From the NCBI RefSeq assembly GCF_013402815.2, contig NZ_CP058601.1, forward strand, positions 3,286,001-3,350,000: a DNA stretch of 64,000 nucleotides. Reading direction: 5' to 3'. The position numbers and the translations under genes are program-made. The notes under the pieces were generated by a model. That model saw only the letters and a program-made list of their open reading frames with translations. It was not told where the DNA came from and searched no databases. Shown piece by piece: positions 21,955-42,822 of the stretch (position 1 is its first letter; each line of letters starts with the position of its first letter). This DNA comes from Natrinema halophilum (lineage in GTDB: Archaea; Halobacteriota; Halobacteria; Halobacteriales; Natrialbaceae).

Positions 21955-23790
21955 TTACGAGACCGTGATCGCCACCTCGTGGGTCGTCCCATCGCCGTTA
22001 TTCGCCGTCGCCGTTAGTCTGACGGTGTACGACCCTGCGGAGTCGTATCGGTGGGCGTTCCACCAACCCGTCGCCGTCGTCCCGTCGCCGAACTCCCACT
22101 CGAGGTCCGTGATCCACCGACCGGAACCGGACGTGTCGCGTACGCTGAACGCGATTCGTTGGTCGACGTTCGCCGACGTGGTGCTCGGATTCATCTTCGC
22201 GATCAGGTCGCCGGACGAGCCACCATCGTCCCCGCTGCCGTCGTCACCGCTGCCGTCGTCGCCGCTGCCGCCGTCACCGCTGCCGTCGTCGCCGCTGCCG
22301 CCGTCACCGCTGCCGTCGTCGCCGCCACCGCTCGAACCGCCGCCCGGCAGGTCGGCGTTTCGATGTTCGTATAGGAACTCCTGCCACCACTGCCCGGGGC
22401 GGGCCTCGTACTCCCAGATTTCCCAGGTGCTGTCTTTGCTGGTGCTATGTTTGAAGAAGGCGGGTTCGAAGGTGTGATCGAAACACCAGGCGATCGGGTG
22501 GACCGGGTAGTTCTCGATGAAGTCCTCGAACTCCGGTGCGTACTCGGAGGCCGTCCCCTCGAGGAAGGCGAAGTCGTCCTTGCCGCCGCCTTCGGCCCAG
22601 CCGAACTCGCTGAAAAACACCGGGACCTGTTCGGCGGGTTCGCCGAAGTACGTCGATAGCGGGCGGAGCGTATCGTGGGTGTAGGCGTGACCGGTGTAAC
22701 AGATGTCGTCGCCGTCGAACTCGTTGTGCGGGGCCCAGTAGGTGTACTGGCTCCACCGGGGCGAGCCGATGGTGAGGAGGTTATCCGCGTGCTCCCGGAC
22801 GGTGTCGATCCACGGCTGGGCCCGATCGACCCACATGTCCCAGTACTGTTTGCTTTCCTGTTCGACGACGTCGACGTCATCGCCGCCCTCGCCGTTTCCG
22901 CTCTGAGGCATCGCCGTCGGCGATCCCCAGTCTCCCGCGTACGGGCCGGTCGGCTCGTTATACACGTCGTAGATGACGTGCGAGCGGTCGCTGTATCGCG
23001 GCGCGACGAAGTTCCAGTACATCTCGAGCTCCTGGTCGAGTTCGGCGGCGTACTCCTCGGTGTAGCCGTCGATCTCGGACGCTTGCTCCTCGGAGTTCCA
23101 GAGGACGCCGCGTTCGCCACAGAAACCGAGGTCGTTCGGGAAGCTCTCCGTTCCACACTGGTACTCGCCGAGGTCGGACTCGTTTTGTGGCTGGTGGAAG
23201 ACCGGGAAGTGCCGGTGGTAATCGATCATCACGTAGACGCCGGCTTCCTCGGCCGCGTCCACCAGCGGGTCCATGTAGTTCGAGAAGTACGCCTCCATGT
23301 CCGATTCGTCGATTTGCCCGGGGAGCAGCGGCCCCCAGTCGTCGCCGTGGGCGGGGGAGAGGTTATTGTTCACGCCGCTGATGTCCTGTGGTTGTGTCGG
23401 CACTCGGATGATCCGGTTGTACCAGCCGCCGTCGTTCGATTCGCTCGTGTCCGTCGCCTTCTCGAAAACGTCCGACCAGTCTTTCTTCCGCCAGCGCCGC
23501 GCCAGTCGAGCCGGATCGGCGATGTTCACCCCGCGAAGAATGACCTTGTTGTCGGACTCGTCGCGGATGAGATTGCCGTCGCGGTGGAGCCACGGTGTGT
23601 CGATGCCAACCGCCGCGACCGAACCGACGATGCTTTCGGCCAGTCCGGCGGTGAGCGCGGTCGTCCCGACCGCCCGCATCACGTTCCGGCGTGAGATGGT
23701 TCCAGGACCGCCGCTGCCGTCCGAAGTCGGTCCGTCCGCATGGGTCGTTGGTTCGTCTGTTCCGTCTGCGTTGTACGTTCGTCGTGCCAT
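21955..23790 (-). CDS. Secreted GH5 endoglucanase with linker and PKD-like domain
   Basis: Extracellular glycoside hydrolase family 5 enzyme of 611 residues, probably an endo-beta-1,4-glucanase. A Tat signal (ISRRNVMRAVG, Arg pair at 34-35) directs folded export. The catalytic domain (about residues 65-480) shows RIIRVPTQPQD, DYHRHFP, the acid/base Glu279 in YDVYNEPTG, TGHAYTHDT and the nucleophile Glu395 in FFSEFGWAE, followed by AWCFDHTF. A Gly/Ser/Asp linker (about 484-526) leads to a PKD-like domain (about 529-611) with ITDLEWEFGDGTT and GWWNAHRYD. ATG 23790 is chosen to give a usual Tat N-region; an upstream ATG at 23847 is possible. It is the last gene of the minus-strand glycosidase cluster. 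Mannanase or xyloglucanase activity cannot be excluded. Confidence 0.9.
   Translation of the reverse strand: MARRTYNADGTDEPTTHADGPTSDGSGGPGTISRRNVMRAVGTTALTAGLAESIVGSVAAVGIDTPWLHRDGNLIRDESDNKVILRGVNIADPARLARRWRKKDWSDVFEKATDTSESNDGGWYNRIIRVPTQPQDISGVNNNLSPAHGDDWGPLLPGQIDESDMEAYFSNYMDPLVDAAEEAGVYVMIDYHRHFPVFHQPQNESDLGEYQCGTESFPNDLGFCGERGVLWNSEEQASEIDGYTEEYAAELDQELEMYWNFVAPRYSDRSHVIYDVYNEPTGPYAGDWGSPTAMPQSGNGEGGDDVDVVEQESKQYWDMWVDRAQPWIDTVREHADNLLTIGSPRWSQYTYWAPHNEFDGDDICYTGHAYTHDTLRPLSTYFGEPAEQVPVFFSEFGWAEGGGKDDFAFLEGTASEYAPEFEDFIENYPVHPIAWCFDHTFEPAFFKHSTSKDSTWEIWEYEARPGQWWQEFLYEHRNADLPGGGSSGGGDDGSGDGGSGDDGSGDGGSGDDGSGDDGSGDDGGSSGDLIAKMNPSTTSANVDQRIAFSVRDTSGSGRWITDLEWEFGDGTTATGWWNAHRYDSAGSYTVRLTATANNGDGTTHEVAITVS
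22209..22337 (-). repeat. Low-complexity linker repeat in the first GH5 gene
   Basis: Tandem imperfect units of about 15-30 bp encode alternating GDDGSGDGGS-type peptide (for example the unit ccgctgccgtcgtc recurs with ccgctgccgccgtca). This is a flexible extracellular linker. Slipped-strand changes in unit number are likely. Confidence 0.8.
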
Positions 23791-24021
23791 TGGTAGGTAC
23801 TCTCTATTGGTCGTGATCGTTCGAGTCGCACTGTGCCTCGTTTCCACGCGTCCGTCCTGACACTCGCGCCGGGCCCCGGGCAGGTCAGCGATCGCTGAAA
23901 CCAGGGGTGCGCTTTAGCCTGTAGATTACTACACCTGGTGGTGATGTCGCGGGGACGGTGCCATCGTAAACGCGGTGTGCGCACCAGCGGGGCAGGGCAG
24001 CGGCGAGTCAGAAGCGTGGCT

Positions 24022-26001
24022 CTAGGACACGGTAATCGTCATCTCGTAGGTCGTCTGGTCGCCGTTGTTTGCGGTCGTCGTCAGCGCCACGGTGTAGGTG
24101 CCCGGCGACTTGTACTGGTGGGCGTTCCACCAACCCGTCGCCGTCGTGCCGTCACCCAACTCCCACTCGAGATCGGTAATCCACCGGCCGACACCGGACG
24201 TGTCTTGCACGTGGAAGGTGATCCGCTCGTCTACGCTGGCGGACGTCGTACTCGGCTGAAACTTCGCGATTGGGTCGCCGGACGGCGCGTCCTCACTGCC
24301 GTCACCGCCATCACTGCCGTCACCGTCGTCACTGCCATCACCGTCGTCACTGCCATCACCGCCGTCACTGCCCTCACCGCCATCACTGCCGTCACCGCCG
24401 TCACTGCCGCCGGTCGTCGCCGTCGTCGTCGCGGCGCTCGATTCGTTGCCGGCACCATCGACTGCCGAGACCCCGATCGTGTAGCTCGTGTCCGCCGAGA
24501 GGTCGGTGATGGTCGCGCTCGTTACGTCCGCTGCGACCTGCTGCTCGACCGAGCCGTCGACGGAGACGTTGTAATGATCGAGACCGCTGCCACCGGCGTC
24601 GGTGGCGGCGTTCCAGGAGACGTCGATCGACGATTCGGTCGTCCCGTCGACCGAGAGCGACGTCGGTGCGGTCGGCGCGGTCGCATCGCCGTCGCCACCG
24701 CCACCTCCCTCGCCCGGAACGTTGTCGTCGCGCAGGTCCGAGAGCGTCGCCTTGATGAACCCGCCCATGTTCTCGCCGGTGAGGGTCGTCCACTCGCAGG
24801 GCCTGTCGGAACACAGTTCCGGTACCGGTTCCGCGTAGGGATTGCCGATCGAGTCCTGCGTGTCGTTGTCCGTAAACGCCCGATCGAACATCGCCGGCAG
24901 CCAGATCGGGTCGGCACACCAGGCCGTCCAGTGGATGGCGTCGCTTTGCTCCATCCAGTCCATAAACGGCTGGCCGTAGTCCGACGTCGTTCCCCGGAGG
25001 TAGCGGCTCCGAATGTCGCTTTGCCAGCCGAACTCTGTGACGAACATCGGGTACTCTTCGTAGACGTTGGCGACTCCGCCGCCGTTCATCGACGCGTCGT
25101 CCCAGGCCTGATCGCGGCTGACGTTGTGGCCCGGATAGATGTGATAGGTATACATGAGATTCGAGCCCTCGAAAGGCTCGACGAGCGCTCCCTCCGGACT
25201 CTGGGACCAGCTGGGCGAGCCGACCAGAACGAGATTCTCCGGCGCGTGCGATCGGATGACGTCTACCCAGGGCTGGGCGGTTTCCTTCCAGTCCCGCCAG
25301 GTGTCCGCCCAGTGGTCTTTGGCGCTCGGATCGCCCCAGATACCCGGTTCCTGTGGCTCGTTGTACAGCTCGTAGAGGACGTGGGACTGATCGGCATAGC
25401 GTGGGGCAACCACGTCCCAGAACAGCCGAATTTCGTCGTCGAGATCCGGGTCTGTCCACTTGATGTCCCGGTGACGGTGATAGTCGATGATGCAGTAGAC
25501 GCCGCGCTGGCGACAGTGCTCGACGACCGGATCGAGGTGGTCGGTCAGATAGGTCTCGAGTTGCGATTCCGTAAACGCGACCGGGGGCGGGCCCTGGCCG
25601 GGTTCGTGCTCGCCGATGTCGACCGGCTGGACTGGGAGTCGGACGACGCGTGCGTGCCAGCCCTGGTTCGCGTCGGTAACCATGTCGACGACCTGTGTGG
25701 CGGTTTTTCCGCGAGCCGGCGCGGTGACGTTGATCCGTTTCGGATCGGCGATATTGACGCCTCGGAGCGTGACCGTGTTGCCGTCCGGATCTTTCACGAG
25801 GTTGCCGTCGACGTGTAACGGCGGTGTCGAAATGCCCGACGATGCGGCGACCGTCGAACCGGTCGCGCCCGTCCCGAGTGCACCGAGGGCACCTGCGGCG
25901 ACGGACGTTCGCATGAACGAACGTCTCGACGTGTCGAGATCGGTAGCGTGTTCAGTAAGACGATGCGTATCGGTCTGATCTTCGTCGCGTGAATCTGTCA
26001 T
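24022..26001 (-). CDS. Secreted GH5 endoglucanase with FN3, linker and PKD-like domain
   Basis: Extracellular family 5 glycoside hydrolase of 659 residues. The Tat signal is SRRSFMRTSVAAG (Arg pair 26-27). The catalytic domain (about 55-430) has RVVRLPVQPVD, DYHRHRD, acid/base Glu215 in YELYNEPQE, YTYHIYPGH and nucleophile Glu323 in FVTEFGWQS. It is followed by a fibronectin type III domain (about 442-530), a Gly/Asp/Ser linker (531-573) and the shared PKD-like domain (577-659) ending in TITVS. Unlike the other two GH5 proteins it lacks their GSPRWSQ...YWAP version of the post-acid/base loop (it reads GSPSWSQSPEGAL), so its substrate cleft may differ. It is separated from the downstream GH5 gene by 231 bp. 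Confidence 0.9.
   Translation of the reverse strand: MTDSRDEDQTDTHRLTEHATDLDTSRRSFMRTSVAAGALGALGTGATGSTVAASSGISTPPLHVDGNLVKDPDGNTVTLRGVNIADPKRINVTAPARGKTATQVVDMVTDANQGWHARVVRLPVQPVDIGEHEPGQGPPPVAFTESQLETYLTDHLDPVVEHCRQRGVYCIIDYHRHRDIKWTDPDLDDEIRLFWDVVAPRYADQSHVLYELYNEPQEPGIWGDPSAKDHWADTWRDWKETAQPWVDVIRSHAPENLVLVGSPSWSQSPEGALVEPFEGSNLMYTYHIYPGHNVSRDQAWDDASMNGGGVANVYEEYPMFVTEFGWQSDIRSRYLRGTTSDYGQPFMDWMEQSDAIHWTAWCADPIWLPAMFDRAFTDNDTQDSIGNPYAEPVPELCSDRPCEWTTLTGENMGGFIKATLSDLRDDNVPGEGGGGGDGDATAPTAPTSLSVDGTTESSIDVSWNAATDAGGSGLDHYNVSVDGSVEQQVAADVTSATITDLSADTSYTIGVSAVDGAGNESSAATTTATTGGSDGGDGSDGGEGSDGGDGSDDGDGSDDGDGSDGGDGSEDAPSGDPIAKFQPSTTSASVDERITFHVQDTSGVGRWITDLEWELGDGTTATGWWNAHQYKSPGTYTVALTTTANNGDQTTYEMTITVS
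24283..24415 (-). repeat. Low-complexity linker repeat in the second GH5 gene
   Basis: Tandem units built on tcactgccgtcaccg and close variants encode the GSDGGDGSDDGD-type linker between the FN3 and PKD-like domains. Confidence 0.8.
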
Positions 26002-26483
26002 CGTTGGTTATTTTTTCAGTATCGTGTCGTCACGGTGCGTTCGTGAGTATGACTGCGGAGCAGAGACGCCAGAGCTGTTCGGACCGTCGACGCTCTCGGG
26101 TCGCTGACCCGGTCGCTCGTCGTGGTCGGTTGAGTATCGGACGCGATCCGAACCCGATGAAGGACTCAGCCAGCCGGTTGCTTCCTCTCGCGATTCAACG
26201 CGTTCGAATCCGACAGTCGTCGTGCGATCGGGTCGAATCATTATATTTCGTTCTTTCACGTGTCGGGTAGGCGCCGCCCGGAGTCGACTTTCCGGCGTGG
26301 TCGATCGCTGGAATCCACCGTTGCTCGAGACGCGAGGGTGGACCGCATTCGCGGTTCGTGAGCGAACCGCCGACGACGCCGGGTCATAGCTGCACCACAC
26401 TGCAATCTATCTTTAATAATGATCGGATATTAGATTTACCCGTCATATTCCGTCCTATTATATGCACATGTCGGAACGTGAGC
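26002..26483. other. Intergenic region with a strong hairpin
   Basis: No gene seen. A perfect inverted repeat gcggttcg-tgag-cgaaccgc occupies 26351-26370. It could terminate the regulator transcript that ends at 26484 only if that transcript continued past its stop (on the minus strand), so it is more likely a dispersed palindrome or a control site upstream of the GH5 gene at 26001. Confidence 0.5.
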
Positions 26484-27128
26484 CTACCCGAGAGACTGGA
26501 AGAGTTGTTCTTCGAGGAGTCGGTGCTGTGCGCGGCGCAATCGCGCGGATACTGACGAACACGAAATACCGAGTTCCTCGGCGATGTCGGCCTGTGTGAC
26601 GCGTTCGGACTCGTCGAAGTATCCCATCTCGTAGGCCGTCGACAGTGCTTCGAACTGAGCGTCCGTCAACTGGTCCCGTGGCTCGTTCGTTTCGGTTGCC
26701 TGACGTAATCGTAACACGGTCACGTCGATGTCGTTCGAGCGGAAGTACTCCCAGACATCGCGGAGGTACTCTCGACCCGACACGCGTGACGTGAACTGGA
26801 GACAGTCGGGACGAATGCGAGCGTCTATAATTGTCCCTTGCTTGCACAGGTCGTCAGGCGGTTCGTCGAGTGTCAGGTCCATCACGACCCAGAACAGGCC
26901 CCTGTCGTCGAGTTCGTTGATGACACCGACGTCGACCACGTTCGGAACGTCGGTGAAGGCAGCAGTGATTCGGCTCGCATCATCGCCAGTGGCCCAGACG
27001 TACCAGATTATTTCGCCCCCGTCCAGATGCCAGTTCTGGATCTCGAGCGTCGATTCAGGGACCACTGCCGCCGCCTGCGGGAGCGTGATCGGCGGCCCGT
27101 TGATCTGGTATTCGACGACGAGGCTCAT
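26484..27128 (-). CDS. Bacterio-opsin-activator-like HTH regulator (HTH_10)
   Basis: Haloarchaeal transcription regulator of 214 residues. The N-terminal part (about 1-150) is the sensory domain typical of the Bat family; the C-terminal helix-turn-helix (about 150-205) has the family signature LTDAQFEALSTAYEMGYFD, then VTQADIAEELGISCSSVSARLRRAQHRLL with the recognition helix around SSVSARLRRAQ. ATG 27128 is chosen because the family starts with the strand SLVVEYQI. It lies between glycosidase genes on the same strand, so it is the obvious candidate for a local activator of the cellulases; this is inference from position. The ligand is unknown. Confidence 0.87.
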   Translation of the reverse strand: MSLVVEYQINGPPITLPQAAAVVPESTLEIQNWHLDGGEIIWYVWATGDDASRITAAFTDVPNVVDVGVINELDDRGLFWVVMDLTLDEPPDDLCKQGTIIDARIRPDCLQFTSRVSGREYLRDVWEYFRSNDIDVTVLRLRQATETNEPRDQLTDAQFEALSTAYEMGYFDESERVTQADIAEELGISCSSVSARLRRAQHRLLEEQLFQSLG

Positions 27129-27509
27129 CGTCGTCGACCCCGTTCCATCCAGGCCGTCACCGATGACGGACAGCATGGTGTCAGTTCGGTGGACCGAGGG
27201 GGGGCAGCGGGTTGTCGTCCGTTCACGTGAGGGTTCTGGACATCACATGCATTGATACCTTGGGGCGCTGGCAGCGTCATTTCACGGCTGCCGACGACGC
27301 TGGCTGGGACTATCGTGGTCCGGACGCGGACCGATCCGGCTGCGGTAGCGAAGTTGCTTCCGGGTCGTGAGCGCCATCTGGTAACCACAGACCGGGTCTC
27401 GTGGTGTGGCGCTGGCAGCCCTGCCGGTGCACCCAGCGTGTCGAATTCTCTGGCGAGTTCCGGCGTCATAGTCGGTACGGTCTATTTCTCTCCATTCCGC
27501 TGATCGGTC
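27129..27509. other. Intergenic region upstream of the regulator
   Basis: No gene or RNA recognised. It separates the regulator from the upstream GH5 gene on the same strand and presumably contains the regulator promoter. Confidence 0.45.
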
Positions 27510-29294
27510 TCATGAGACGGTAATCGTCACCTCGTGAACCGTCTCGTCGCCCGTGTTTGTGGTCGTCGTCAGCGCCACGGTGTACGCGCCCGCCGAGTCA
27601 TACCGGTGTGCGTTCCACCAGCCCGTGGCCGTCGTGCCGTCACCGAACTCCCACTCGAGGTCGGTGATCCACCGCCCTGTGCCGGACGTATCGGTCACGC
27701 TGAACGTGATCCGTTCGTCGACGCTCGCCGACGTCGTGCTCGGAGACAGCGTCGCGATCGGATCGGACGATCCGTCATCCGCTGTGGTCTCCACCGAGAC
27801 GGTCGCAACGGGCGACTCGCTGCCGGAGGCATCGATCGCCGAGACGCCGAACTGGTAGCTCGTGTTCGCCGAGAGATCCGAAACCGTCGCCGCGGTCGTT
27901 CCGGCCGCGACCTGTTGATTCACGTTCCCCTCCACGTACACAGAATAGTGGTCAAGATCGCCGTCGCTCGAGTCCGACGGGGGTTCCCAGGCGAGATCGA
28001 CGGTGGAACGAGTCTGGGCCGGCGAGGACACGTTCGACGGTGGCGCCGGCGGCGTGTCGTCTGACCCGCTGCCGTTCGACGGGTCGCCGGTCCCGGTGGC
28101 TTGCAGGCGGTTCTTGAACAACCGTCCGTGCGGGCTCGCGACCTCGTGGTCTCGGTTCAGCATAGCCGGCGACCAGGTGTGATCGAAACACCAGACCTGC
28201 CAGTGGATGTCGTAGGTGTCGAAGAGATCGAGGAACTGCTGTCCTTCGACGTCGGTGGTACCCGTAAGGTAGGGCGGGCCTTCCTCGCCGTACCCGAACT
28301 CGCTCAGGAACACCGGGACCTCCTCGGACGGCTCGCCGAAGTGCGTCGACAACGGGCGGAGGTTCTCGTGGGCATAAACGTGACCCGCGTACGCGAGGTT
28401 GTCGCCCTGGAATTCGTGTTTGGGTGCCCAGTAGGTGAACTGGCTCCACCGCGGCGACCCGATGACGACGAGGTTCCGTGACGCGTGAGACCGAATCAGG
28501 TCAACCCATGGTTGGGCAGTCTCGCGCCAGTAGAGATAGTTCTCCTCGGCACGCGGGTCAGTGACGCCGACCTCGTCCGTCGGGTCACCAGCACCGGGAT
28601 ACGGCGTCGTCGGTTCGTTGTACAGTTCGTAGATGACGTGCGAACGGTCGCTGTACCGCGGCGCAACGTGGTTCCAGAACGTCCGGATCTCCTCGTCGAG
28701 TTCCGGGGAATCCCAGTCCGGCCCTTCGGGATAATGTCGATGGTAATCCAGCATGATGTAGGCGCCGACGTCTTCGGCCGTCTGGACTGCCGGGTCGACG
28801 TACGTCTCCAGATACGTCTCCAGTTGGCTCTCGGTGAATCCTGGCGTCGGTGCGGCCGTCCCAGGGCCGTGATCACCGATATCCTGCGGCTGCATCGGTA
28901 GTCGGATGATACGCGCGTTCCAGCCCTGACTCGAGTCGGTCGCCAGTTCGATCAGCGGCTCGATGTCCATTCGCCACTCCGCGGCGGCCCGCTTCGGATC
29001 GACGACGTTGACGCCCCGCAAGTGTACCTCATTCCCAGTGGCGTCCCTGATGCGGTTGCCCTCACGGTGCAACCACGGCGTTTCGGTGGTAGTCGTGGCC
29101 GCCTCGCCGACCGAAACGGCTTGCAATCCGCTTGCCAGCGCGACCGACCCGACGGTCGACTTCACGAATACGCGCCGAGACGCGTGTCCATCTCGTCCGT
29201 CGCCGCCCCGGCTCTCCGTACTCTGGCGCTTCTCGGTATTGCTGCCTGTTCCCCTCTCGACCGTCCGCTCGATATTCTGTGGGTAGTCTGTCAT
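27510..29294 (-). CDS. Secreted GH5 endoglucanase with FN3 and PKD-like domains
   Basis: Extracellular family 5 glycoside hydrolase of 594 residues. The Tat signal is ASRRVFVKSTVG (Arg pair 40-41). The catalytic domain (about 70-400) shows RIIRLPMQPQD, DYHRHYPEG, acid/base Glu227 in YELYNEPTT, GSPRWSQFTYWAP, AGHVYAHEN and nucleophile Glu332 in FLSEFGYGE, then WQVWCFDHTW. An FN3 domain (about 414-505) follows and joins almost directly to the PKD-like domain (511-594), so this protein lacks the long Gly/Asp linker of its relatives. It shares with the first GH5 the loop RPLSTxFGEP and is clearly a paralogue. It lies 129 bp downstream of the GH12 gene, so co-transcription is plausible. Confidence 0.9.
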   Translation of the reverse strand: MTDYPQNIERTVERGTGSNTEKRQSTESRGGDGRDGHASRRVFVKSTVGSVALASGLQAVSVGEAATTTTETPWLHREGNRIRDATGNEVHLRGVNVVDPKRAAAEWRMDIEPLIELATDSSQGWNARIIRLPMQPQDIGDHGPGTAAPTPGFTESQLETYLETYVDPAVQTAEDVGAYIMLDYHRHYPEGPDWDSPELDEEIRTFWNHVAPRYSDRSHVIYELYNEPTTPYPGAGDPTDEVGVTDPRAEENYLYWRETAQPWVDLIRSHASRNLVVIGSPRWSQFTYWAPKHEFQGDNLAYAGHVYAHENLRPLSTHFGEPSEEVPVFLSEFGYGEEGPPYLTGTTDVEGQQFLDLFDTYDIHWQVWCFDHTWSPAMLNRDHEVASPHGRLFKNRLQATGTGDPSNGSGSDDTPPAPPSNVSSPAQTRSTVDLAWEPPSDSSDGDLDHYSVYVEGNVNQQVAAGTTAATVSDLSANTSYQFGVSAIDASGSESPVATVSVETTADDGSSDPIATLSPSTTSASVDERITFSVTDTSGTGRWITDLEWEFGDGTTATGWWNAHRYDSAGAYTVALTTTTNTGDETVHEVTITVS

Positions 29295-29423
29295 TCGTGT
29301 CAGTTTCGTGTCTGATAATTTGCCCCCGGTCTCCCTCAGCAGTCGAGTGTCGGTTCCGCTCGGCGGGTATCGACTACGGAGGCCGAACGGGTGCGGTAGT
29401 CCGTTTCGCGACGGGTGGACCCC

Positions 29424-30863: not shown

Positions 30864-30927
30864 GATGTACTGGTATGCTTTCGTCGTTCGTCTGCTGCTA
30901 CCAACACCCACTATGGATGCTATCATA

Positions 30928-30944: not shown

Positions 30945-31059
30945 GAATAAAGATTTTTACTAGTTCTTAACACGTATTGTGGCAGATGTGAACCCATCTC
31001 ATTTGCCGGATACAGCAAGTAAAACGCGTAATAGTCGGTGACGCGTCGATCCAGATACG

Positions 31060-31419
31060 ATGGTGGAAACACCCGCACGCGAGATCGGATTGGATCGGCC
31101 GGGGACCTCCAGTCTTCGTGCTGCGTTTTTCAGCGTTTGGTTCGTCGACCTCGTCGCGACGATTCTGTTCTTCGTCGTCCCATACGCGACCGAACTGAAT
31201 CCGATTACGGTCTTTCTGTACGACCTCCTCGGGCTAACTGGCGTCGTTTTCGCTGCACTCATCTACGCTGGCATCGTCGTCGGTATCAGTTCCCTCCTTT
31301 CGAGGCCGTTCGACGTCGTCTTCGTCACGTCCGTCGTTATCCTGTATGCCCTCTTTGCGAGCAGCAACGTCGTTTTGTTGATCTCCCGCGAACCACTGCT
31401 GTCGCCATTCATGCCGTAA
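31060..31419 (+). CDS. Small hypothetical membrane protein (about 3 TM)
   Basis: Unrecognised protein of 119 residues with three or four hydrophobic helices (about residues 20-42, 50-72 and 85-105) and a short cytoplasmic N-terminus. The composition is haloarchaeal and the frame is not explained by an antisense gene. It is transcribed away from the cellulase cluster. It might assist secretion or surface attachment of the enzymes, but position is the only hint. Confidence 0.6.
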   Translation: MVETPAREIGLDRPGTSSLRAAFFSVWFVDLVATILFFVVPYATELNPITVFLYDLLGLTGVVFAALIYAGIVVGISSLLSRPFDVVFVTSVVILYALFASSNVVLLISREPLLSPFMP

Positions 31420-31544
31420 TCAAACTGGTTACACGAGGTGATCGATCATTGATCCCAGCCCGAACGGTCAGTATATTTTATTGTCGACCAGTGGCCATGA
31501 GTTGGTATGCAACGTCATATCGTCCCGCGAGTAGGAGGGCGAAC

Positions 31545-31766
31545 ATGAGTGTCCGCGAGGAGTTCTGGAGCATCGTGTGTGCGCATTCCTCGTCTTTCTA
31601 TCTCATGTTCGTCTTCGTCACCGTGATGGCTGTCCTGAACGCAGCGGCAGTGGGACTCGGCGAACAGTCAGCGGGAACGATCGTCGTCTCGTTGCTCGTG
31701 TTCGTAATTCTCGGGCTGACCGGGTTCGGAATCGCCATCGTGTTATGGGTGTGCAAACGGCGATAG
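31545..31766 (+). CDS. Small hypothetical two-helix membrane protein
   Basis: Unrecognised 73-residue protein: a short polar N-terminus (MSVREEFWSIV), then two hydrophobic helices (about 20-40 and 48-70) and a basic end (WVCKRR). The start at 31545 is supported by a ggagg motif 7 nt upstream; an earlier in-frame ATG at 31497 is possible. It follows the previous small membrane protein after 125 bp and could share its transcript. Confidence 0.5.
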   Translation: MSVREEFWSIVCAHSSSFYLMFVFVTVMAVLNAAAVGLGEQSAGTIVVSLLVFVILGLTGFGIAIVLWVCKRR

Positions 31767-32996: not shown

Positions 32997-33058
32997 AAAA
33001 TTTTGCTAATTAAAATATGACTAAATTTATGTGTGAGCAACGTTGACTAGGGAACCGT

Positions 33059-34768: not shown

Positions 34769-34785
34769 TCCATTCACACGTTTTT

Positions 34786-35811
34786 ATGAACTGGTACATC
34801 AAACGAACAGGACAGGCATTGTTTACGATCTGGTCGGTCATTACGATCGCGTTCGTTCTCGCGTGGAACATTCCGGGTTCCATCGTCGAGAAGATGATCG
34901 CTCGGATGGCACAATCAGGCGGTGGTGGAAGCCGAGAGGTCATCCGTGAATCGATCGAGAGCCGCCTCATGTTCGATCCGAATGCGTCGATCTTCGAGGC
35001 GTACGTAACGTACATGACGGAATTAGCCCAGGGTAATCTCGGGTATTCCATCGTAGCGAGCAAAAACGTCAGCGCAGAAATCGCCGATACGCTCCCGTGG
35101 ACGCTGCTCGTGATGTCGCTCGCGACTCTCGGGATGTTCGCCATCTCCCTGTCGCTGGGCGCGATCATGGCCTATCGAGAAGGATCCCGATTCGACCTCG
35201 CTAACACCATCGTCGGGACCGTCACGACCTCGATACCCTACTTCGTCGCCGCGCTCTTGCTAATCCTCTGGGTCGGCCACAGCGACGCCCCGATCCTCGA
35301 ACTATTCCCGGAGGCCGGACGGCGACCTGCAAAGTACCAAATCGAACCCGGCCTCACCCTCGCGTACGCGTGGGGTGTGCTCAGACACGCGACGCTTCCC
35401 GCATTGTCGTATATCATTACCGGGTACGGCTTGCTCGCGCTTTCGATGCGCGGCAACAGCATCCAGACACTCGGCGAGGACTACGTCCGCGTTGCCGAAC
35501 TTCGCGGCCTCCCATCCCGGCGGATCGCACTCCGATACGTCGGTCGGAACGCCGTTCTCCCGCTGTACACAAGCCTGCTGCTCGCGGTTGGCTCCATGCT
35601 GGGAGCGTCCGTCGTGCTCGAACAGATTTTCCAGTACAAAGGCATCGGATATCGGATGTTTCAGGCGATAAACAATAGTGACATCACGCTCATGATGGGA
35701 ACGTTCATCGTCATCTCGGTATGCATGGTGATCTCGACGTTCATCGCAGACGTGACCTACAGCTTCCTGGATCCGCGGATCAAATCGGGTGATCAAGGTG
35801 AAGCCTACTGA
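34786..35811 (+). CDS. ABC transporter permease (DppB/OppB type)
   Basis: Inner-membrane permease of 341 residues. It has the OppB layout: TM1 immediately at the N-terminus (RTGQALFTIWSVITIAFV), a long extracellular loop, then five helices. The cytoplasmic EAA-like loop is DYVRVAELRGLPSRRIALRYVGRNA, which docks with the ATPases. It starts 17 bp after the binding-protein gene, with no room for a separate promoter, and overlaps the next permease by about 23 bp. It forms the translocation pore with the DppC-type partner. Confidence 0.92.
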   Translation: MNWYIKRTGQALFTIWSVITIAFVLAWNIPGSIVEKMIARMAQSGGGGSREVIRESIESRLMFDPNASIFEAYVTYMTELAQGNLGYSIVASKNVSAEIADTLPWTLLVMSLATLGMFAISLSLGAIMAYREGSRFDLANTIVGTVTTSIPYFVAALLLILWVGHSDAPILELFPEAGRRPAKYQIEPGLTLAYAWGVLRHATLPALSYIITGYGLLALSMRGNSIQTLGEDYVRVAELRGLPSRRIALRYVGRNAVLPLYTSLLLAVGSMLGASVVLEQIFQYKGIGYRMFQAINNSDITLMMGTFIVISVCMVISTFIADVTYSFLDPRIKSGDQGEAY

Positions 35812-36883
35812 CGACGACGTACGGACCGATGGCGGAATGTTCGGTGAATCGGCGGTAACGAACGTGACGCGCCGTCAGCAAGCCCGGGAGGTCGTCGACG
35901 AATCGATCGTCGCCCCGTTCAAAATCGCCTGGTCGGACTGGCGGACGAAGGTCGCCCTGATTATTATCACGACCTTCGTCATCACGGCCGTGATCGTCTG
36001 GCTCCACCAGATTGGTATCACCATCCTGAACGACGCACTCAACCTGGTCGGGTCGCCGTGGACGCTCGAGACACCGCGGAGTCCGACGGTCCTTACGCCA
36101 GAAATGACGGGCGTTCGTCCGTTCGAGAACTGGGAAACGCCGCTCGGAACGTTCGACAACGGCGTCGACGTTCTATCGGCGCTGCTCTGGGCGACGCCGG
36201 GAATGCTGCAGATGATCATCGCCGGCGGAGTCTTCTCGACGGCTATGGCAACACTCGTCGGGACCGTCTCCGGGTATAAAGGCGGGACTGTCGAAACGGT
36301 GCTCAACACCATCGTCGACGTGGCAGTTGCTATCCCCGGTCTGCCGCTGGTTGTCGTGCTCATGGCGATTTTTCAGCCGTCCTCTCCCTACGTGATCGGG
36401 ATATTCATCACGATCAACGTCTGGGCCGGGCTCGCGCGGACGATCCATTCGCAGGTGCTCTCACTCCGCGAGAAATCCTACGTCGAGGCATCACGCACGA
36501 TGGGTATTTCCACCCCGCAGATTATCCGGAAGGATATTCTGCCGAACCTGATGCCGTATATCACGGTCAACTTCGTCTATGCCGCACGCCGGGTCGTCTA
36601 CGACAGCATCGCGCTGTACTACCTGGGGCTGTTGGGCGGCGCTACGGCGGAAAACTGGGGCGTGATGCTCGACTGGGCGTACAACGAAAACAATGCGATG
36701 ACCGTTCCGGGGAAAGAGTTCATGCTCATCTTGCCAATGATTCCGATCATCGCGTTGTCGTTGGCACTGATCTTGCTCTCACAGGGGACTGACAAGCTGT
36801 TCAACCCCCGGGTCCGCACCCGTCACGAAGGCAAGACGGTTCAAGACGACGACGCTGATCCCCAGGTTAATCCTCCGATGTAA
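35789..36883 (+). CDS. ABC transporter permease (DppC/OppC type)
   Basis: Inner-membrane permease of 364 residues, partner of the preceding gene. The N-terminal cytoplasmic segment is followed by one helix, a long loop (about 75-125) and five more helices. The EAA loop reads YVEASRTMGISTPQIIRKDILPNL, the usual OppC signature. The frame opens at a GTG at 35789; a second GTG at 35798 and an ATG at 35837 are possible starts, so the 23-bp overlap with the upstream gene is uncertain. Translational coupling is likely in any case. Confidence 0.9.
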   Translation: MIKVKPTDDDVRTDGGMFGESAVTNVTRRQQAREVVDESIVAPFKIAWSDWRTKVALIIITTFVITAVIVWLHQIGITILNDALNLVGSPWTLETPRSPTVLTPEMTGVRPFENWETPLGTFDNGVDVLSALLWATPGMLQMIIAGGVFSTAMATLVGTVSGYKGGTVETVLNTIVDVAVAIPGLPLVVVLMAIFQPSSPYVIGIFITINVWAGLARTIHSQVLSLREKSYVEASRTMGISTPQIIRKDILPNLMPYITVNFVYAARRVVYDSIALYYLGLLGGATAENWGVMLDWAYNENNAMTVPGKEFMLILPMIPIIALSLALILLSQGTDKLFNPRVRTRHEGKTVQDDDADPQVNPPM

Positions 36884-36888
36884 TAGCT

Positions 36889-37992
36889 ATGACTGAGCAA
36901 GACACACCACTGACGCAGACGGCGACGCACAGCTCACAAACCACGTCCGATACCGTCCTCGAGATACGGAACGCCGAGGTCACATTCGGGATGGACCGCG
37001 GCGTCTCCCGCGTTCTGGACACCGTCGACCTCGACGTCCAGCGCGGTGAGATCATCGGAGTCGTTGGCGAGAGTGGAAGCGGCAAGTCGATGCTCGCTTC
37101 GTCGATTCTCGACGCGGTGGTCGATCCGGGTGTGCTCTCCGGAGAGATCACGTACTACCCAGACGACGGAGCGCCCGTCGACGTCCTCGGTCTCTCGGAA
37201 CGGGAGCTGAAGTCCCTTCGATGGGAGGATATCTCCATGGTCTTCCAGGGTGCGATGAGCTCGTTCAATCCGACCATGAAGGTCGGCAAACACTTCGAGG
37301 AAACCCTCGTTGCCCACGACTACGACGTCGATACAGGGATGGAGCGCGCCCGCGAACTGCTCTCGGACCTGTACCTCGAGCCTGAGCGCGTTCTCGGTTC
37401 GTATCCGCACGAACTCAGCGGCGGCATGCAACAGCGGGCATTGATCGCCCTGTCGTTGATCCTCGAACCCGAGGTACTCGTCATGGACGAGCCGACGGCG
37501 GCACTCGACTTGCTGATGCAGCGCTCGATACTCTCGTTGCTGGAGAACCTGCAGGAAAAATACGATCTGACGATGGTGTTCATCACACACGACCTGCCGC
37601 TGGTCGCCGAACTGGCCGATCGCATCGCCGTGATGTACGCTTTCGAACTGATCGAGATCGGCCAGACTGAGGAAATCCTTCGCCACGCAGCACACCCGTA
37701 CACGCGATCGCTCCTGAACGCGACGCCGAACCTCGACGCACCGCTCGAGGAGATGCAACCGATCGAAGGCTCCGCACCCGATCCGGTGAACGTCCCGGAG
37801 GGGTGTTCGTACAACCCGCGGTGTCCGATCGCCGACGAGACCTGCGTCGCCGACGATCCGGATTTCCAGTCGGCCAGTCCGGACCACGAGGTTGCGTGTT
37901 TTCACTGGGAGGACGCGGCCGAGGCGGTCCCTTTCACCAGCGAGGAGCAACACGCGGAACCGAAAGCATCGACCGCGGAGGAGAACCGATGA
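36889..37992 (+). CDS. ABC transporter ATPase (DppD/OppD type)
   Basis: Cytoplasmic ATPase of 367 residues that powers the importer. Walker A GESGSGKSM, ABC signature LSGGMQQRALIAL, Walker B VLVMDEPTAALD and switch His in ITHDLPLV are all present. The C-terminal Opp/Dpp extension ends with CSYNPRCPIADETC, the Cys motif found in this transporter subfamily. It begins 5 bp after the permease stop and its own stop overlaps the start of the second ATPase by ATGA. Confidence 0.93.
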   Translation: MTEQDTPLTQTATHSSQTTSDTVLEIRNAEVTFGMDRGVSRVLDTVDLDVQRGEIIGVVGESGSGKSMLASSILDAVVDPGVLSGEITYYPDDGAPVDVLGLSERELKSLRWEDISMVFQGAMSSFNPTMKVGKHFEETLVAHDYDVDTGMERARELLSDLYLEPERVLGSYPHELSGGMQQRALIALSLILEPEVLVMDEPTAALDLLMQRSILSLLENLQEKYDLTMVFITHDLPLVAELADRIAVMYAFELIEIGQTEEILRHAAHPYTRSLLNATPNLDAPLEEMQPIEGSAPDPVNVPEGCSYNPRCPIADETCVADDPDFQSASPDHEVACFHWEDAAEAVPFTSEEQHAEPKASTAEENR

Positions 37993-39095
37993 CGGGGGAG
38001 CCACTCATCTCGCTCGACGGCGTCGAAGTTCACTTCGAGGAATCGCAGGGTCTATTGGAGTTCGGTGATCCGGACGTCGTCAAAGCCGTTGACGGCGTTT
38101 CGCTCGATATCGAAGAAAACGACGTCGTCGCACTCGTCGGAGAGTCCGGGTGCGGAAAGACGACCCTCGGGAAGACGACGATCGGGCTCCAGCGACCGAC
38201 CGGCGGAAGCGTCCGGTATCGGGGCCAGGACATCTGGGACGCGAAAGACGGGAATGGGGACGTTGCGATCCCCTACGACGAGATTCGCCGTTCCCTCCAG
38301 ATCATCCATCAGGACCCGGGGAGCGCACTCAACCCTAATCGTCGGGTGATGAAAATCCTCGAGGACCCGTTGAAGCGATGGCAGTCCGGAATGAGCACGG
38401 GCGATCGACGCCGAGAGATCCTGTCGATGTTAGAACGGGTTGGAATGACACCGCCAGCCGACTATGCCGGTCGATATCCCCACCAGCTCTCCGGTGGTGA
38501 GCAACAACGCGTCGCGCTCGTCCGCGCGCTGTTGATGGATCCCGATATGATCTTGGCGGACGAAGCTATCTCGGCACTGGACGTTTCACTGCGCGTCGAG
38601 ATGATGGATCTGTTGCTTGAACTGCAGGATCAGTTCGACACGTCGTTCGTGTTCGTCTCTCACGACCTCTCGAACGCGCGATACCTGGCATCTCACGCCG
38701 GCGGACGGATCGGCGTGATGTACCTCGGACAACTGGTCGAGATCGGTCCGGCCGAGGAGATCGTCACCGACCCAAAACATCCCTACACGAAGGTGCTTCG
38801 GTGGGCGACGCCGGACCTCCATACCGGGACGGACGCGGCGGAGCCACCGGTTCGAACGATCGATATCCCCGATCCGCAGAATCCTCCACGCGGCTGTCGA
38901 TTCCACACCAGGTGTCCCGACGCGCGCGAAGCATGTCGGCGGGCTCACCCCGACTCCGTCGGCGCGGGCACCGACCACGAGGTCGCGTGCTTCCGCGAGG
39001 TCGACGACCACGAGTATTGGTCGTCGACGCCGCTCACCGAGACCGATGACTCGGCCGACGGTACGGCCCCGGCGCAGTCGCCAACCACGGATTGA
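37989..39095 (+). CDS. ABC transporter ATPase (DppF/OppF type)
   Basis: Second cytoplasmic ATPase of the importer, 368 residues. Walker A GESGCGKTTLGKT, signature LSGGEQQRVALVRALL, Walker B MILADEAISALD and switch FVSHDLSNA are intact. The C-terminal extension has CRFHTRCPDAREAC. The start at 37989 overlaps the previous stop (ATGA), and an upstream extension of the frame would run inside dppD. It is the last gene of the operon; a GH3 gene with its own promoter follows after 119 bp. Confidence 0.93.
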   Translation: MTGEPLISLDGVEVHFEESQGLLEFGDPDVVKAVDGVSLDIEENDVVALVGESGCGKTTLGKTTIGLQRPTGGSVRYRGQDIWDAKDGNGDVAIPYDEIRRSLQIIHQDPGSALNPNRRVMKILEDPLKRWQSGMSTGDRRREILSMLERVGMTPPADYAGRYPHQLSGGEQQRVALVRALLMDPDMILADEAISALDVSLRVEMMDLLLELQDQFDTSFVFVSHDLSNARYLASHAGGRIGVMYLGQLVEIGPAEEIVTDPKHPYTKVLRWATPDLHTGTDAAEPPVRTIDIPDPQNPPRGCRFHTRCPDAREACRRAHPDSVGAGTDHEVACFREVDDHEYWSSTPLTETDDSADGTAPAQSPTTD

Positions 39096-39181
39096 CGCAC
39101 CCCGCCGTCTTCAGTGGATCCTCCGCCTGAAAAAAGGCAACGTTTCTGTTACCGCTGACGATTCTATCACTGTACCCGTAG

Positions 39182-39189
39182 TTTTAATA
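39182..39189 (+). promoter_or_regulatory. TATA-like element before the GH3 gene
   Basis: ttttaata lies centred 29 nt before the ATG at 39215, the spacing for a leaderless transcript. It suggests the beta-glucosidase can be transcribed separately from the ABC operon. Confidence 0.45.
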
Positions 39190-39214
39190 CAAACCGAGTC
39201 AATGTAAAACAAGA

Positions 39215-41434
39215 ATGACCGGTCGAGAGCATTCCTACGAGAGTGGCGATTATGCAGCACCCGATCCCGCGAACATGACCCTGGCCGAAAAGGCCGGACA
39301 GCTCGTCGGTGCGTACGTTGGACCGTTAGGTGACGTCGACCTGAGCGTCGACGATGCAGCAGCGCTCGTCCGCGACGAGAACGTCGGAACGGTCGCGGCG
39401 TTTGGAATCGGTATTTCTCCGCACCGGAATCCTGAACGGCTCGCCGAGATCGCCAATCGTCTTCAGCGGGTTGCCATAGAGGAGACGCGTCACGGCATCC
39501 CGCTGTTGCTTCCCGTCGACGCCGTCCACGGACACGCGTACGTAGACGGGGCAACGGTGTTTCCCCACGGGCTGGGCGTCGCTGCGACCCGAAACCCAGC
39601 GAACGAGCGTATGGCCAGCGATATCACGGCTGCGGAGATGCGTGCAACCGGTGCGAACCAGGCCTACGGCCCAACCTGCGACGTGGCACGCGATCCGCGC
39701 TGGGGACGCACCTTCGAAACGTACGGAGAGAGTCCGCTTCTGTGTAGCGCATTTTCTCGAGCAGCCGTTCGCGGATTCGAGTCCATCGAGCACAGTCCAC
39801 GCGTCGCTGCGACAGCAAAACATTTCCCAGCCTACAGCGATCCGGCGGGTGGCGAGGACGCTGCCGTCGTAGACCGCTCCTCGAGTACCGTTCATCGGCT
39901 ATTCATCCCGCCGTTCGTCGAAGCGATCGACGCCGGTGCGTCGGTCGTGATGCCGTGTTATAACTCCGTCGACGGTGAACCGGCCCACGGCTCCCGCCGA
40001 TACCTCACCGAACTTCTGCGCGAACGACTCGGGTTCGACGGAGCGATCGTCTCGGACTGGGGCGGGATCGATCATCTCCACGAGGATCACCGCGTGACGG
40101 CATCCCAGCGTGACTCGGCGCGAACGGCGATCGACGCGGGTCTCGACCTGATATCGATCGGCCGCGACGAGTACACGGCTCACATCCGAGACCTCGTCGA
40201 AGCGGGCGAACTGTCTGAACGCCGTATCGACGAGGCTGTCACCCGAATTCTCGACCTGAAGCAGTCGCTCGGCCTCTTCGAGGACCCGTACGTCGACGTC
40301 GAGACCGTCAAGTCAACGGTCGGTTCCTCGGATCATCGTACGGCCGCGTTGCAAGCGGCCCGCGAGTCCCAGACCCTCCTCGAGAACGACGGGGTCCTTC
40401 CCCTGTCGGACGATTTGGATTCGATTCTCGTCGCGGGTCCGAACGCGGATTCCCTGCGCAATCAGTTCGGTGGATGGAGCGTTCAGACTCCCGACCCCAC
40501 GACCGGATCGACGGTTCTGGACGGGATCGTGGAACGGGCCGGTGACGGGACGTCGGTCCGGTACGAGCAGGGTGCGACTCTCCGAGACCAACGCGACCTC
40601 GAGGCGGTCGGTGACGCCGCGACGGACGCAGACGTGGCGGTCGTGGCCGTCGGTGAAGGGTGGTACTACCACGAGTTCGGACCGACGGAACTCATCGGCC
40701 CCACCGGCAGTTTTCCGAGTCGCTCCCTGCTCGAGTTACCGGATGCCCAGCGCGACCTGCTCGAGACCGTCAACGAAACCGGAACGCCGATGGTGGTCGT
40801 CGCGATTGCGGGTCGACCGCTGGCGCTGTCGTGGACCGCTGACGCCGCCAACGCGCTCGTTTACTCGTACTACCCCGGCAGCGAAGGCGGCGAAGCGATC
40901 GCGAACGTTCTGTTCGGCGATCACAATCCGTCAGGTCGATTGCCGATCAGCGTTCCGCGTTCGGCGTCCGAACTGCCGACGAATTTCAATCACGTCGCCC
41001 ATCCGACGCCGATCGGGGCCGACGAACACCCCGATACGTACGACCCCCTCTACGAGTTCGGCTACGGCGAGAGCTACACCGAATTTTCGTGTCGCGATCT
41101 GACGGTAGCCAACTCGCGGATCGGACCTGCCGAATCGGTTACCGCCTCGATCACCGTCGAAAACGTCGGCAATCGAGCGGGCGACCGGGCGGTCGATTTC
41201 TTCCTGCGAGACGAAGTGAGTTCGCGCGTTCGCCCCGTTCGGGAACACGCTGGCTTCGCACGCGTTTCTCTCGAACCCGGCGAGTCGACGGTCGCCGAGG
41301 TAACGATTCCGAACGAGTCATTAGCCGTGACCGACTCGCAAGGCCGGAGCAGGGTCGAACCAGGTGTGTTCGAACTCTCGTGTGAGAACTGTTCGACGAC
41401 AGTCACGGTCGAGCAGACGAACGCCCGGCGATAG
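39215..41434 (+). CDS. GH3 beta-glucosidase (cytoplasmic)
   Basis: Family 3 glycoside hydrolase of 739 residues that should release glucose from cellobiose and short cello-oligosaccharides. The N-terminal TIM-barrel (about 15-350) contains PVDAVHGHAYVDGATVFPHG, YGPTCDVARDPRWGRTFETYGE, KHFPAYSDP and the nucleophile Asp281 in AIVSDWGGIDH. The alpha/beta-sandwich domain (about 370-590) supplies the acid/base residue (candidate region GEGWYYHEFGP), and the FN3-like domain (about 640-730) closes the protein. There is no signal peptide, so the enzyme should act in the cytoplasm on sugars imported by the adjacent ABC system. The length is typical for a three-domain GH3. Confidence 0.93.
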   Translation: MTGREHSYESGDYAAPDPANMTLAEKAGQLVGAYVGPLGDVDLSVDDAAALVRDENVGTVAAFGIGISPHRNPERLAEIANRLQRVAIEETRHGIPLLLPVDAVHGHAYVDGATVFPHGLGVAATRNPANERMASDITAAEMRATGANQAYGPTCDVARDPRWGRTFETYGESPLLCSAFSRAAVRGFESIEHSPRVAATAKHFPAYSDPAGGEDAAVVDRSSSTVHRLFIPPFVEAIDAGASVVMPCYNSVDGEPAHGSRRYLTELLRERLGFDGAIVSDWGGIDHLHEDHRVTASQRDSARTAIDAGLDLISIGRDEYTAHIRDLVEAGELSERRIDEAVTRILDLKQSLGLFEDPYVDVETVKSTVGSSDHRTAALQAARESQTLLENDGVLPLSDDLDSILVAGPNADSLRNQFGGWSVQTPDPTTGSTVLDGIVERAGDGTSVRYEQGATLRDQRDLEAVGDAATDADVAVVAVGEGWYYHEFGPTELIGPTGSFPSRSLLELPDAQRDLLETVNETGTPMVVVAIAGRPLALSWTADAANALVYSYYPGSEGGEAIANVLFGDHNPSGRLPISVPRSASELPTNFNHVAHPTPIGADEHPDTYDPLYEFGYGESYTEFSCRDLTVANSRIGPAESVTASITVENVGNRAGDRAVDFFLRDEVSSRVRPVREHAGFARVSLEPGESTVAEVTIPNESLAVTDSQGRSRVEPGVFELSCENCSTTVTVEQTNARR

Positions 41435-41587
41435 CTGGCGAATTGCTTTTTTGTCGATCGATTTTCATCGCATTCGGTACATCTAGCGTCGTCGATCGAG
41501 AAAGACAGCGAATGAGGGGAAACTCGAAATCCGACGCCCACCGAGTTCAAAATCGCCAGTCGCTCGACCGATATCGACTCAGACCGT

Positions 41588-41725
41588 ACATATATTTTAT
41601 ATGTGGCCGACTAAAGAACGAATCATTGAATGAAAATCGTGGCACTGGACCGGTTCAGGAACTACAATTATATATTGTATTACATGTAATAATGCTATGT
41701 TATTTTAATAGAGTGTATTATACAC
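41588..41725 (+). promoter_or_regulatory. Cluster of four inverted repeats upstream of the TrmB gene
   Basis: Four near or perfect palindromes lie within 138 bp: acatata-ttt-tatatgt (41588-41604), acaat-tatat-attgt (41664-41678), tattacatgtaata (41678-41691, perfect) and gtgta-tta-tacac (41713-41725). They occupy the promoter region before the TrmB start at 41761. TrmB-family sensors bind palindromic operators, so autoregulation or control by the nearby Bat-like regulator is likely. Confidence 0.5.
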
Positions 41726-41760
41726 ATACATTTTTGTACGTTCGTGATTCAGTAAATGGT

Positions 41761-42822
41761 ATGGACACGAAGACGCTCCGACGGGCGCTCGAGGACGCTG
41801 GGTTGACCGGTCAGCAAGCGGAGGCCTATCTCACACTCCTCGAATCGGGACCAGCTCCTGTCGTCGAGATCGCCCAGCAGTCGTCGATTTCGTCCTCGCG
41901 GATCTACGACATCGTCCGATCGTTAGAGGAAGAGGGTTTCGTCGAGACGCTCGAGCGCGATCGATTACACGCTCGGCCGCGCGAACCCGTCGACGTTCTC
42001 AATCGGCTTCGCCAAAAGAGCGAGATGTTTGCGGACGCTGCCGGGGAGATCGAAGATCGATGGGAGCGTCCTGATCCGCGCGAATCGCGCATTAGCGTCC
42101 TCAAACGGGCCGAGACGGTGCTCAGGAGCACCGCGGACGCAATCGCTGAGTCGAACATCTCCCTCGTACTGGCCGTCACACCGGCCCAACTCGAGGAATT
42201 GCGGCCGACGATCGAGACCGCCGCCGCAAACGGCACGCTGATTCAGATTGCGGTCTACGACGACGGCACCGTCGACGTCCCCCGGATCGAGGGCGTCCTG
42301 GAAATTCGTCGGTGCTGTATTCCCGGCCCGTTTCTGGCGATCGTCGACCGTCGGTATGCGTTCTTCGAGCCGAACGTCCGCAGCGATCGCTCGTACGGGA
42401 TCACGATCGGGGACGAAATCCTTTCGTTCATCATGCACTGGTACTTCTGGACGTGTCTCTGGGCACAGAACGAACGGATTCACGTCGATCGAGAACAGCC
42501 CCCGACGTACGTCAGCATCGAGGGGTTCGTCCACGATGCCGCATCGCTACTTCACGACGATGCGACGATGACGCTCCACATAATCGGCCGGCAGATCGAG
42601 ACCGGCGACCGAGTCGATATTCGCGGCGAGCTCGCTCGGGTCACCTGTGGTGGCCACCTCGAGTTACCGCGTCATCCGAAGTATACTGACCTGGCGGGCC
42701 AGATCACTCTCTACGTCGAGACTGAGGACGGTATCGTTTCGGTCGGCGCGTGGGGTGCGGTATTCGAGGACGTCGAGGCCGAAATCATTCGTGTGGAAGG
42801 GATTGACCTCCCGGAGCCGTAA
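41761..42822 (+). CDS. TrmB-family sugar-responsive transcription regulator
   Basis: Regulator of 353 residues. The N-terminal winged helix (about 1-75) has LTGQQAEAYLTLLESG and SSSRIYDIVRSLEEEGFVE, then the coiled linker (about 85-105). The C-terminal sugar-binding domain (about 110-350) includes RSDRSYGITIGDEILSF and the TrmB_C-like part ending in the ITLYVETEDG strand. TrmB regulators bind maltose, trehalose, glucose or related sugars and control sugar transport and breakdown genes. Next to GH3 and the importer it is the natural sensor of this pathway. ATG 41761 follows an AT-rich promoter with four inverted repeats. Confidence 0.9.
   Translation: MDTKTLRRALEDAGLTGQQAEAYLTLLESGPAPVVEIAQQSSISSSRIYDIVRSLEEEGFVETLERDRLHARPREPVDVLNRLRQKSEMFADAAGEIEDRWERPDPRESRISVLKRAETVLRSTADAIAESNISLVLAVTPAQLEELRPTIETAAANGTLIQIAVYDDGTVDVPRIEGVLEIRRCCIPGPFLAIVDRRYAFFEPNVRSDRSYGITIGDEILSFIMHWYFWTCLWAQNERIHVDREQPPTYVSIEGFVHDAASLLHDDATMTLHIIGRQIETGDRVDIRGELARVTCGGHLELPRHPKYTDLAGQITLYVETEDGIVSVGAWGAVFEDVEAEIIRVEGIDLPEP

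Follow-up and report, generated by a model that had tools for sequence, protein, structure and literature searches.

A probable beta-1,4-glucan utilisation locus of Natrinema halophilum combining an import module with a neighbouring block of secreted endoglucanases

Introduction

The main text of the closest comparative study describes cellulotrophic haloarchaea as carrying many glycoside hydrolase (GH) genes of families GH5, GH9, GH10 and GH12, with import of cello-oligosaccharides by ATP-binding cassette (ABC) transporters proposed (Elcheninov et al. 2023, PMC10267330). It gives one exception to the GH9 pattern, Natrinema salaciae, mentions neither TrmB nor regulation, and does not single out a module of importer, GH3 and TrmB. 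Natronoglomus mannanivorans grows on cellulose and mannan, and its description lists ABC transporters and assigns none of them to cellulose (PMC10963439). Here we analyse positions 21955-42822 of a 64,000-nucleotide stretch of the Natrinema halophilum genome (contig NZ_CP058601.1, positions 3,286,001 to 3,350,000; the window), for which a sequence-only reading had proposed a complete cellulose/beta-glucan utilisation locus under common control. We find that this is probably a locus for beta-1,4-glucan utilisation, assembled from two parts.

The first part (31545-42822) is an ancestral module of importer, HEAT-repeat protein, a small membrane protein (mem93), GH3 and TrmB, which would import cello-oligosaccharides and split them to glucose. 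The second (21955-30926) holds four endoglucanases with signals for twin-arginine translocation (Tat), three of GH5 and one of GH12, which would have been set beside the module in this lineage; its GH5 genes, at least two of them apparently of lateral origin, would substitute for a native cluster lost elsewhere in the genome. Outside the cell the four exported enzymes would cut beta-1,4-glucan, the binding lipoprotein would capture oligosaccharides for the ABC importer to bring in, GH3 would cleave them in the cytoplasm, and TrmB would respond to the imported sugar and exert control. What can be read directly from the genomes is gene content, synteny, phylogeny, co-occurrence and the loss of the native cluster; substrate, direction of import and control by TrmB in response to imported sugar are predicted from sequence.

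Results

Organization of the locus

Two divergent gene groups fill the locus, the secreted enzymes and a Bat-type regulator on the minus strand and the importer side on the plus strand. Functions below are predicted from the evidence in brackets.

21955-23847 (start possibly 23790), minus: GH5c, Tat-secreted GH5 endoglucanase with C-terminal PKD domain (Pfam Cellulase 6.2e-18, PKD)
24022-26001, minus: GH5b, Tat-secreted GH5 endoglucanase with FN3 and PKD domains (Pfam Cellulase 2.4e-35)
26484-27176, minus: Bat-type regulator (Pfam BAT domain, HTH_10)
27510-29294, minus: GH5a, Tat-secreted GH5 endoglucanase with FN3 and PKD domains (Pfam Cellulase 5e-27)
29424-30926, minus: GH12, Tat-secreted family-12 endoglucanase with linker and PKD domain (phmmer, profile, catalytic glutamates, predicted fold)
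31060-31419, plus: mem119, membrane protein of 119 amino acids (75% identical to congener G066)
31545-31766, plus: mem93, small membrane protein (upstream of the HEAT gene in congeners)
31952-32878, plus: HEAT-repeat protein (Pfam HEAT)
33059-34768, plus: substrate-binding lipoprotein, family 5, cluster C oligosaccharide type (Pfam SBP_bac_5)
34786-35811, plus: ABC permease 1 (Pfam BPD_transp_1)
35789-36883, plus: ABC permease 2 (Pfam BPD_transp_1)
36889-37992, plus: ABC ATPase 1, OppD type (Pfam ABC_tran, oligo_HPY)
37989-39095, plus: ABC ATPase 2, OppF type (Pfam ABC_tran, oligo_HPY)
39215-41434, plus: cytoplasmic GH3 beta-glycosidase (Pfam GH3 N 3.6e-69, C 1.4e-47)
41761-42822, plus: TrmB sugar-sensing regulator (Pfam Regulator_TrmB 3.5e-40)

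Every gene named by the sequence-only reading (three Tat-secreted GH5 enzymes, a Tat-secreted GH12, Bat, the importer, a signal-less GH3 and TrmB) is present on the strand implied; the HEAT-repeat gene and a small membrane protein had been overlooked. Two starts were corrected, that of TrmB to about 41761 from 41443 and that of the second ATPase to about 37989 from an open reading frame (ORF) at 37803. The ORF at 31038-31766 was rejected as a gene, as it overlaps the real small membrane genes at 31060-31419 and 31545-31766. Every locus protein checked is acidic (isoelectric point 4.2-4.7).

Identity of the secreted enzymes

All three GH5 proteins have a twin-arginine signal, a Cellulase domain above the Pfam cut-off, the acid/base glutamate in an NEP motif and the nucleophile glutamate in SEFG or TEFG (SEFG in GH5c). 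Their nearest neighbours in the PDB are the cellulases 4hty, 8bn7 and 5wh8, GH5b matching PDB cellulases at 2e-23 and GH5a a PDB cellulase at 9e-18, with GH5c matching weakly. Their PDB matches also include 5a8m, which we take to be a mixed-linkage glucanase of GH5_26 type. This genome holds six GH5 (PF00150) genes in total.

The fourth enzyme is invisible to Pfam as a GH12: the GH12 model gave no match to the protein at 29424-30926 even at E 10, and the PKD domain alone was found. The protein matches the GH12 endoglucanase 3wx5 at 1.6e-10 by phmmer, a profile of its 16-member family matches GH12 structures at 9e-17, and the catalytic glutamates E224 and E313 are invariant across the 16 homologs. 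In the structural model the predicted local distance difference test score is mostly 76-96 in the catalytic region, which adopts a beta-jelly-roll fold; all 50 Foldseek matches listed are GH12 enzymes, and template-modelling scores among them reach 0.85 on the target. Identity as GH12 is thus confirmed by the catalytic residues together with the predicted fold, though Pfam does not see it. The enzyme families claimed from sequence alone are borne out by these domains and active-site residues. Elsewhere in the genome (C1:2744464-2749857) three GH12 genes stand in tandem, 74-82% identical to the catalytic domain of the window GH12.

Identity of the import, hydrolysis and sensing components

The importer consists of an SBP_bac_5 binding protein whose nearest structures bind oligosaccharides, two permeases and OppD/F-type ATPases. 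The solved structures nearest to the binding protein are chito-, manno- and cello-oligosaccharide binders, so that the class of ligand is secure and the exact sugar is not fixed by the fold. The GH3 protein has both N and C domains and the nucleophile motif SDW and lacks a signal peptide; in TrmB both the helix-turn-helix (HTH) and the sugar-binding regulator domain were detected. The proposed order of secretion, import and cytoplasmic hydrolysis is supported.

We consider it very improbable that the importer carries peptides or manno-oligosaccharides instead. Its Opp/Dpp annotation, the presence of the mannobiose binder TM1223 among the nearest structures and the position of a paralogous importer of this genome in a mannan-type locus would fit such a substrate; profile matches, however, rank oligosaccharide binders far above peptide binders, the importer is linked to GH3 and TrmB and in relatives to GH9, and the mannan-type paralogous loci checked lack both HEAT and mem93. 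In that paralogous locus (C1:868000-884000) a second Opp-type importer is accompanied by a GH5 with a PKD tail, an IclR regulator and an oxidoreductase-like gene; the locus appears to be of mannan type and has neither HEAT nor mem93. A similar locus (L141) has in addition a GH2-like ORF.

The import module is conserved and tracks multiple GH5 genes

In six congeners (G052, G059, G066, G068, G069, G072) the genes for HEAT, binding protein, permeases, ATPases, GH3 and TrmB follow in identical order with about 71-85% identity, at the corresponding chromosomal site between flanking genes mostly 81-94% identical. The TrmB orthologs at the equivalent place in congeners are 76-86% identical, and mem119 is a long-standing resident of the site. 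In other genera the module occurs without TrmB in G085, G007, G008, G095 and G096 and with it in G022; outside the genus GH3 remains about 70% identical and the binding protein falls to about 30-45%. On this comparison of sequences we regard the import-hydrolysis-sensing module as ancestral. In four further genomes (G011, G083, G111, G118; loci L106-L109) a GH3-TrmB pair adjoins a different, MalK-like ABC importer, suggesting that importers may have been exchanged around a conserved GH3-TrmB core.

Co-occurrence was determined across 125 genomes of the family Natrialbaceae, 13 of them with the module. At least four GH5 genes were present in 12 of the 13 module genomes and in 0 of the 112 others (Fisher p 7e-16), and lowering the threshold to one GH5 gene gave p 9e-10; these p-values take no account of descent, and both the GH5 threshold and what counts as the module were set post hoc. 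Outside the genus at least three GH5 genes were found in 5/6 module genomes versus 3/90 without it (p 5e-6). On a tree of 29 congeners built from an rpoB region, the two traits agree in every independent pair with good support, of which there are three (the best tree has five), too few for significance. Genomes G038-G040 encode a GH9 about 6 kb away from a homologous importer. GH5 lengths in G007 (637 and 610) agree with the published table for N. mannanivorans (PMC10963439). Because the module co-occurs with multiple GH5 genes, GH9 adjoins homologous importers and the binding protein is of oligosaccharide type, beta-1,4-glucan is well supported as the substrate class.

Several observations, along with the limits of the p-values given above, weigh against this interpretation. 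No cellulose-binding module was recognised by Pfam in the locus proteins, and no GH9 (PF00759) match was found in this genome or in the genus. G022 has the module but no Pfam-detectable GH5. Chito- and mannoside binders are among the closest solved binding proteins. GH3 gave no NCBIfam equivalog above cut-off, so that a glucosidase-specific match fails, and models for xylosidase, 1,3/1,6-glucosidase and BglX score it alike. Two further observations concern control: Bat has no ortholog in the 124 family relatives (best relative 33% identical), and aligned module promoters revealed no shared operator, being conserved only around the expected core promoter.

It is possible, if doubtful, that the same architecture serves mainly, instead of cellulose, a beta-glucan that is soluble or branched (xyloglucan, mixed-linkage glucan) or some other hemicellulose. 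Besides endoglucanases, the fold matches of GH12 contain xyloglucanases, the GH5 matches include 5a8m, presumed above to be a mixed-linkage enzyme, and the GH3 models favour xylosidase/arabinosidase by a small margin; the missing GH9 points the same way. Against this, GH9 genes adjoin homologous importers and the module tracks multi-GH5 genomes, including the lineage of a published cellulose grower (PMC10963439). Of the substrate first proposed, the beta-1,4-glucan class stands; cellulose specifically is at best weakly supported, GH9 being missing and the specificity of GH3 equivocal.

Loss of the native GH5 cluster and origin of the enzyme block

In the six congeners 0.4-0.57 Mb separates the GH5 cluster from the module, unless the two are on different contigs; across congeners and other genera together the distance for the main GH5 clusters is 0.16-0.57 Mb, again where they share a contig with the module. 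The congener cluster is flanked by an RNase Z-like gene and a gene of 718 amino acids (c13746). In N. halophilum the two flanking genes remain near each other, enclosing a secreted-protein relic (L168 13752-15743; C1:2938751-2940742) but no GH5; G053, the sister genome, has nothing between them. The native GH5 cluster has been lost from its site in this genome.

Phylogenetic analysis placed the window enzymes apart from those of congeners. GH5c pairs with Halobacteriales archaeon YIM A00010 (82% in the catalytic domain) and GH5b with YIM A00010 and Halocatena (74%), a grouping with 97-99% support in the Shimodaira-Hasegawa-like approximate likelihood ratio test (SH-aLRT); Halocatena is placed in a different family, Natronomonadaceae. 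Congener GH5s fall elsewhere in the tree, at about 42-53% identity to the window enzymes. Given these placements, lateral acquisition is the best reading for GH5b and GH5c. The origin of GH5a, which groups not with congeners but with G085, G007 and G008 of other genera of the family (up to 62%), is less clear.

That the block arose instead by relocation of the native cluster seems to us quite improbable. The congener cluster does hold types broadly like GH5c and, in some genomes, GH5a or GH5b, and the GC content and third-position GC of the block are normal, bearing no foreign mark. The tree placements, however, reject relocation for GH5b and GH5c, and the flanking genes are 81-94% identical to those of congeners, compared with about 42-53% for the GH5s themselves. 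No insertion footprint was recognised, the direct repeats in the block being mostly coding (linkers, PKD, GH5 homology).

The history of GH12 would be different. In G053, IclR is followed by an RdfA-like gene and a GH12 whose catalytic domain is 84% identical; next come mem119, a GH3 reduced to its C-terminal half, and TrmB. In N. halophilum the RdfA-like gene is missing and GH5c, GH5b, Bat and GH5a occupy the gap. Since G053 carries GH12 at the equivalent place, comparison of the two sequences shows that GH12 was resident at the site before the genomes split. The locus of G053 (C1:2774000-2793999) is decayed, with GH12 and TrmB intact and a deletion from mem93 to the middle of GH3.

The four enzymes also share their C-terminal ends, the last 86-88 residues (PKD) of GH5a, GH5b, GH5c and GH12 being about 74-85% identical. 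These tails and that of the G053 GH12 form one clade (SH-aLRT 93), outside which the YIM A00010/Halocatena tails and the congener tails fall, and the PKD-tail search detected no comparable tail in the YIM A00010 enzymes related to GH5b and GH5c. From the four near-identical tails and their lack in the YIM A00010 relatives, the imported catalytic domains seem to have received a resident PKD tail by fusion or gene conversion. A common attachment role of the tails may be supposed from their similarity.

Two other features lie beyond TrmB. At 43431-44024 is an IclR-type gene with the C-terminal sensor part only, in which no HTH domain was found, probably a remnant. At 44587-48541 (minus strand) a second, PotABCD-like ABC importer is found, which occurs at the same place in G053 (86-94%) and was not seen in the loci of the six other congeners.

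Adjacency and control of the two parts

An unlikely alternative is that the GH block and the importer are two independent neighbours, brought together by chance and neither co-used nor co-regulated. None of the other genomes examined links block and importer, and here they are transcribed divergently; a shared operator was not found and Bat is not conserved. The motif TACT-N7/8-AGTA, presumably the operator of Halobacterium TrmB, has no match in the window and may not be the motif of this TrmB. Upstream of the binding-protein gene lies a palindrome, TTCACACAATACTTGTGAA, that shows no conservation. Set against this is the near-perfect co-occurrence of both parts even when unlinked, which makes joint use likely whatever caused their adjacency. 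The adjacency itself could be accidental. With no shared operator and Bat lacking an ortholog, common control is unproven; Bat was rejected as a conserved partner, and on both these points the sequence-only reading has weak support or none.

HEAT and mem93 as candidate importer components

Both in the module and in several importers paralogous to it, the genes for HEAT and mem93 come before that for the binding protein. Of 28 HEAT matches examined across Natrialbaceae, 23 lie within 5.4 kb of a binding protein of this kind. mem93 is upstream of the HEAT gene in congeners, with weaker matches in other genera. A literature search yielded nothing relevant on the HEAT protein, and no published account of its pairing with a small membrane gene was found. 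On this conserved association the two may be parts of the importer. We tentatively raise a broader proposal, itself no better than a possibility, in which HEAT and the small membrane protein are undescribed importer parts (for coupling, assembly or regulation) and foreign catalytic domains of cellulases settled at the importer site, acquired the PKD tail already resident there and so rebuilt a cellulolytic capacity that had been lost.

Discussion

All the parts first proposed stand side by side, but the term complete locus calls for qualification: as one evolved unit it finds little or no support, as the enzymes are unlinked from the importer in other GH5-bearing module genomes. The gene-order comparison suggested at that time separates the two parts: the import module is conserved, and the placement of the GH5 genes beside the importer is not shared by the six congeners. 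The analysis ties a specific importer, a cytoplasmic GH3 and a sensor to the haloarchaeal cellulolytic trait, a link left open by the published comparative study, and the module may serve as a marker for predicting that trait. It would also illustrate a route of locus assembly, in which an old import module is retained, a native cluster is lost and a replacement block is set beside the importer, and it flags two uncharacterised companion proteins as worth testing.

Comparison with described systems indicates which features are shared. As described in the main text of the comparative study (PMC10267330), cellulotrophic haloarchaea resemble N. halophilum in having several Tat-secreted acidic GH5 and GH12 enzymes, with multiple GH5; this genome, unlike them, lacks GH9, and its GH5 genes adjoin an importer. 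The GH5 islands of N. mannanivorans (PMC10963439) likewise cluster GH5/PKD and GH5 endoglucanases, but in G007/G008 the GH5 island is at least 165 kb from the importer module. In the chitin clusters of Natrarchaeobius (PMC12343721) secreted hydrolases, an ABC importer and GH3 are also clustered, differing in that they form a GH18/GH20 chitin system with a diacetylchitobiose-type binding protein. The binding protein shares the family 5 fold and oligosaccharide-binding type of the Thermotoga maritima cluster C binders (cellobiose binder 2o7i, TM1223) at about 17% identity, and the haloarchaeal version adds HEAT and small membrane companions. As in the polysaccharide utilisation loci of Bacteroidetes, secreted hydrolases, import, an internal exo-enzyme and a sensor stand together; SusC/SusD, not expected in an archaeon, were not among the Pfam matches of the locus proteins, there is no outer membrane, and ABC import and a TrmB sensor take their place. 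All of the parts thus belong to families already known; what is new is their arrangement in a single locus and the history of that arrangement, and the assignment of the importer is a testable addition.

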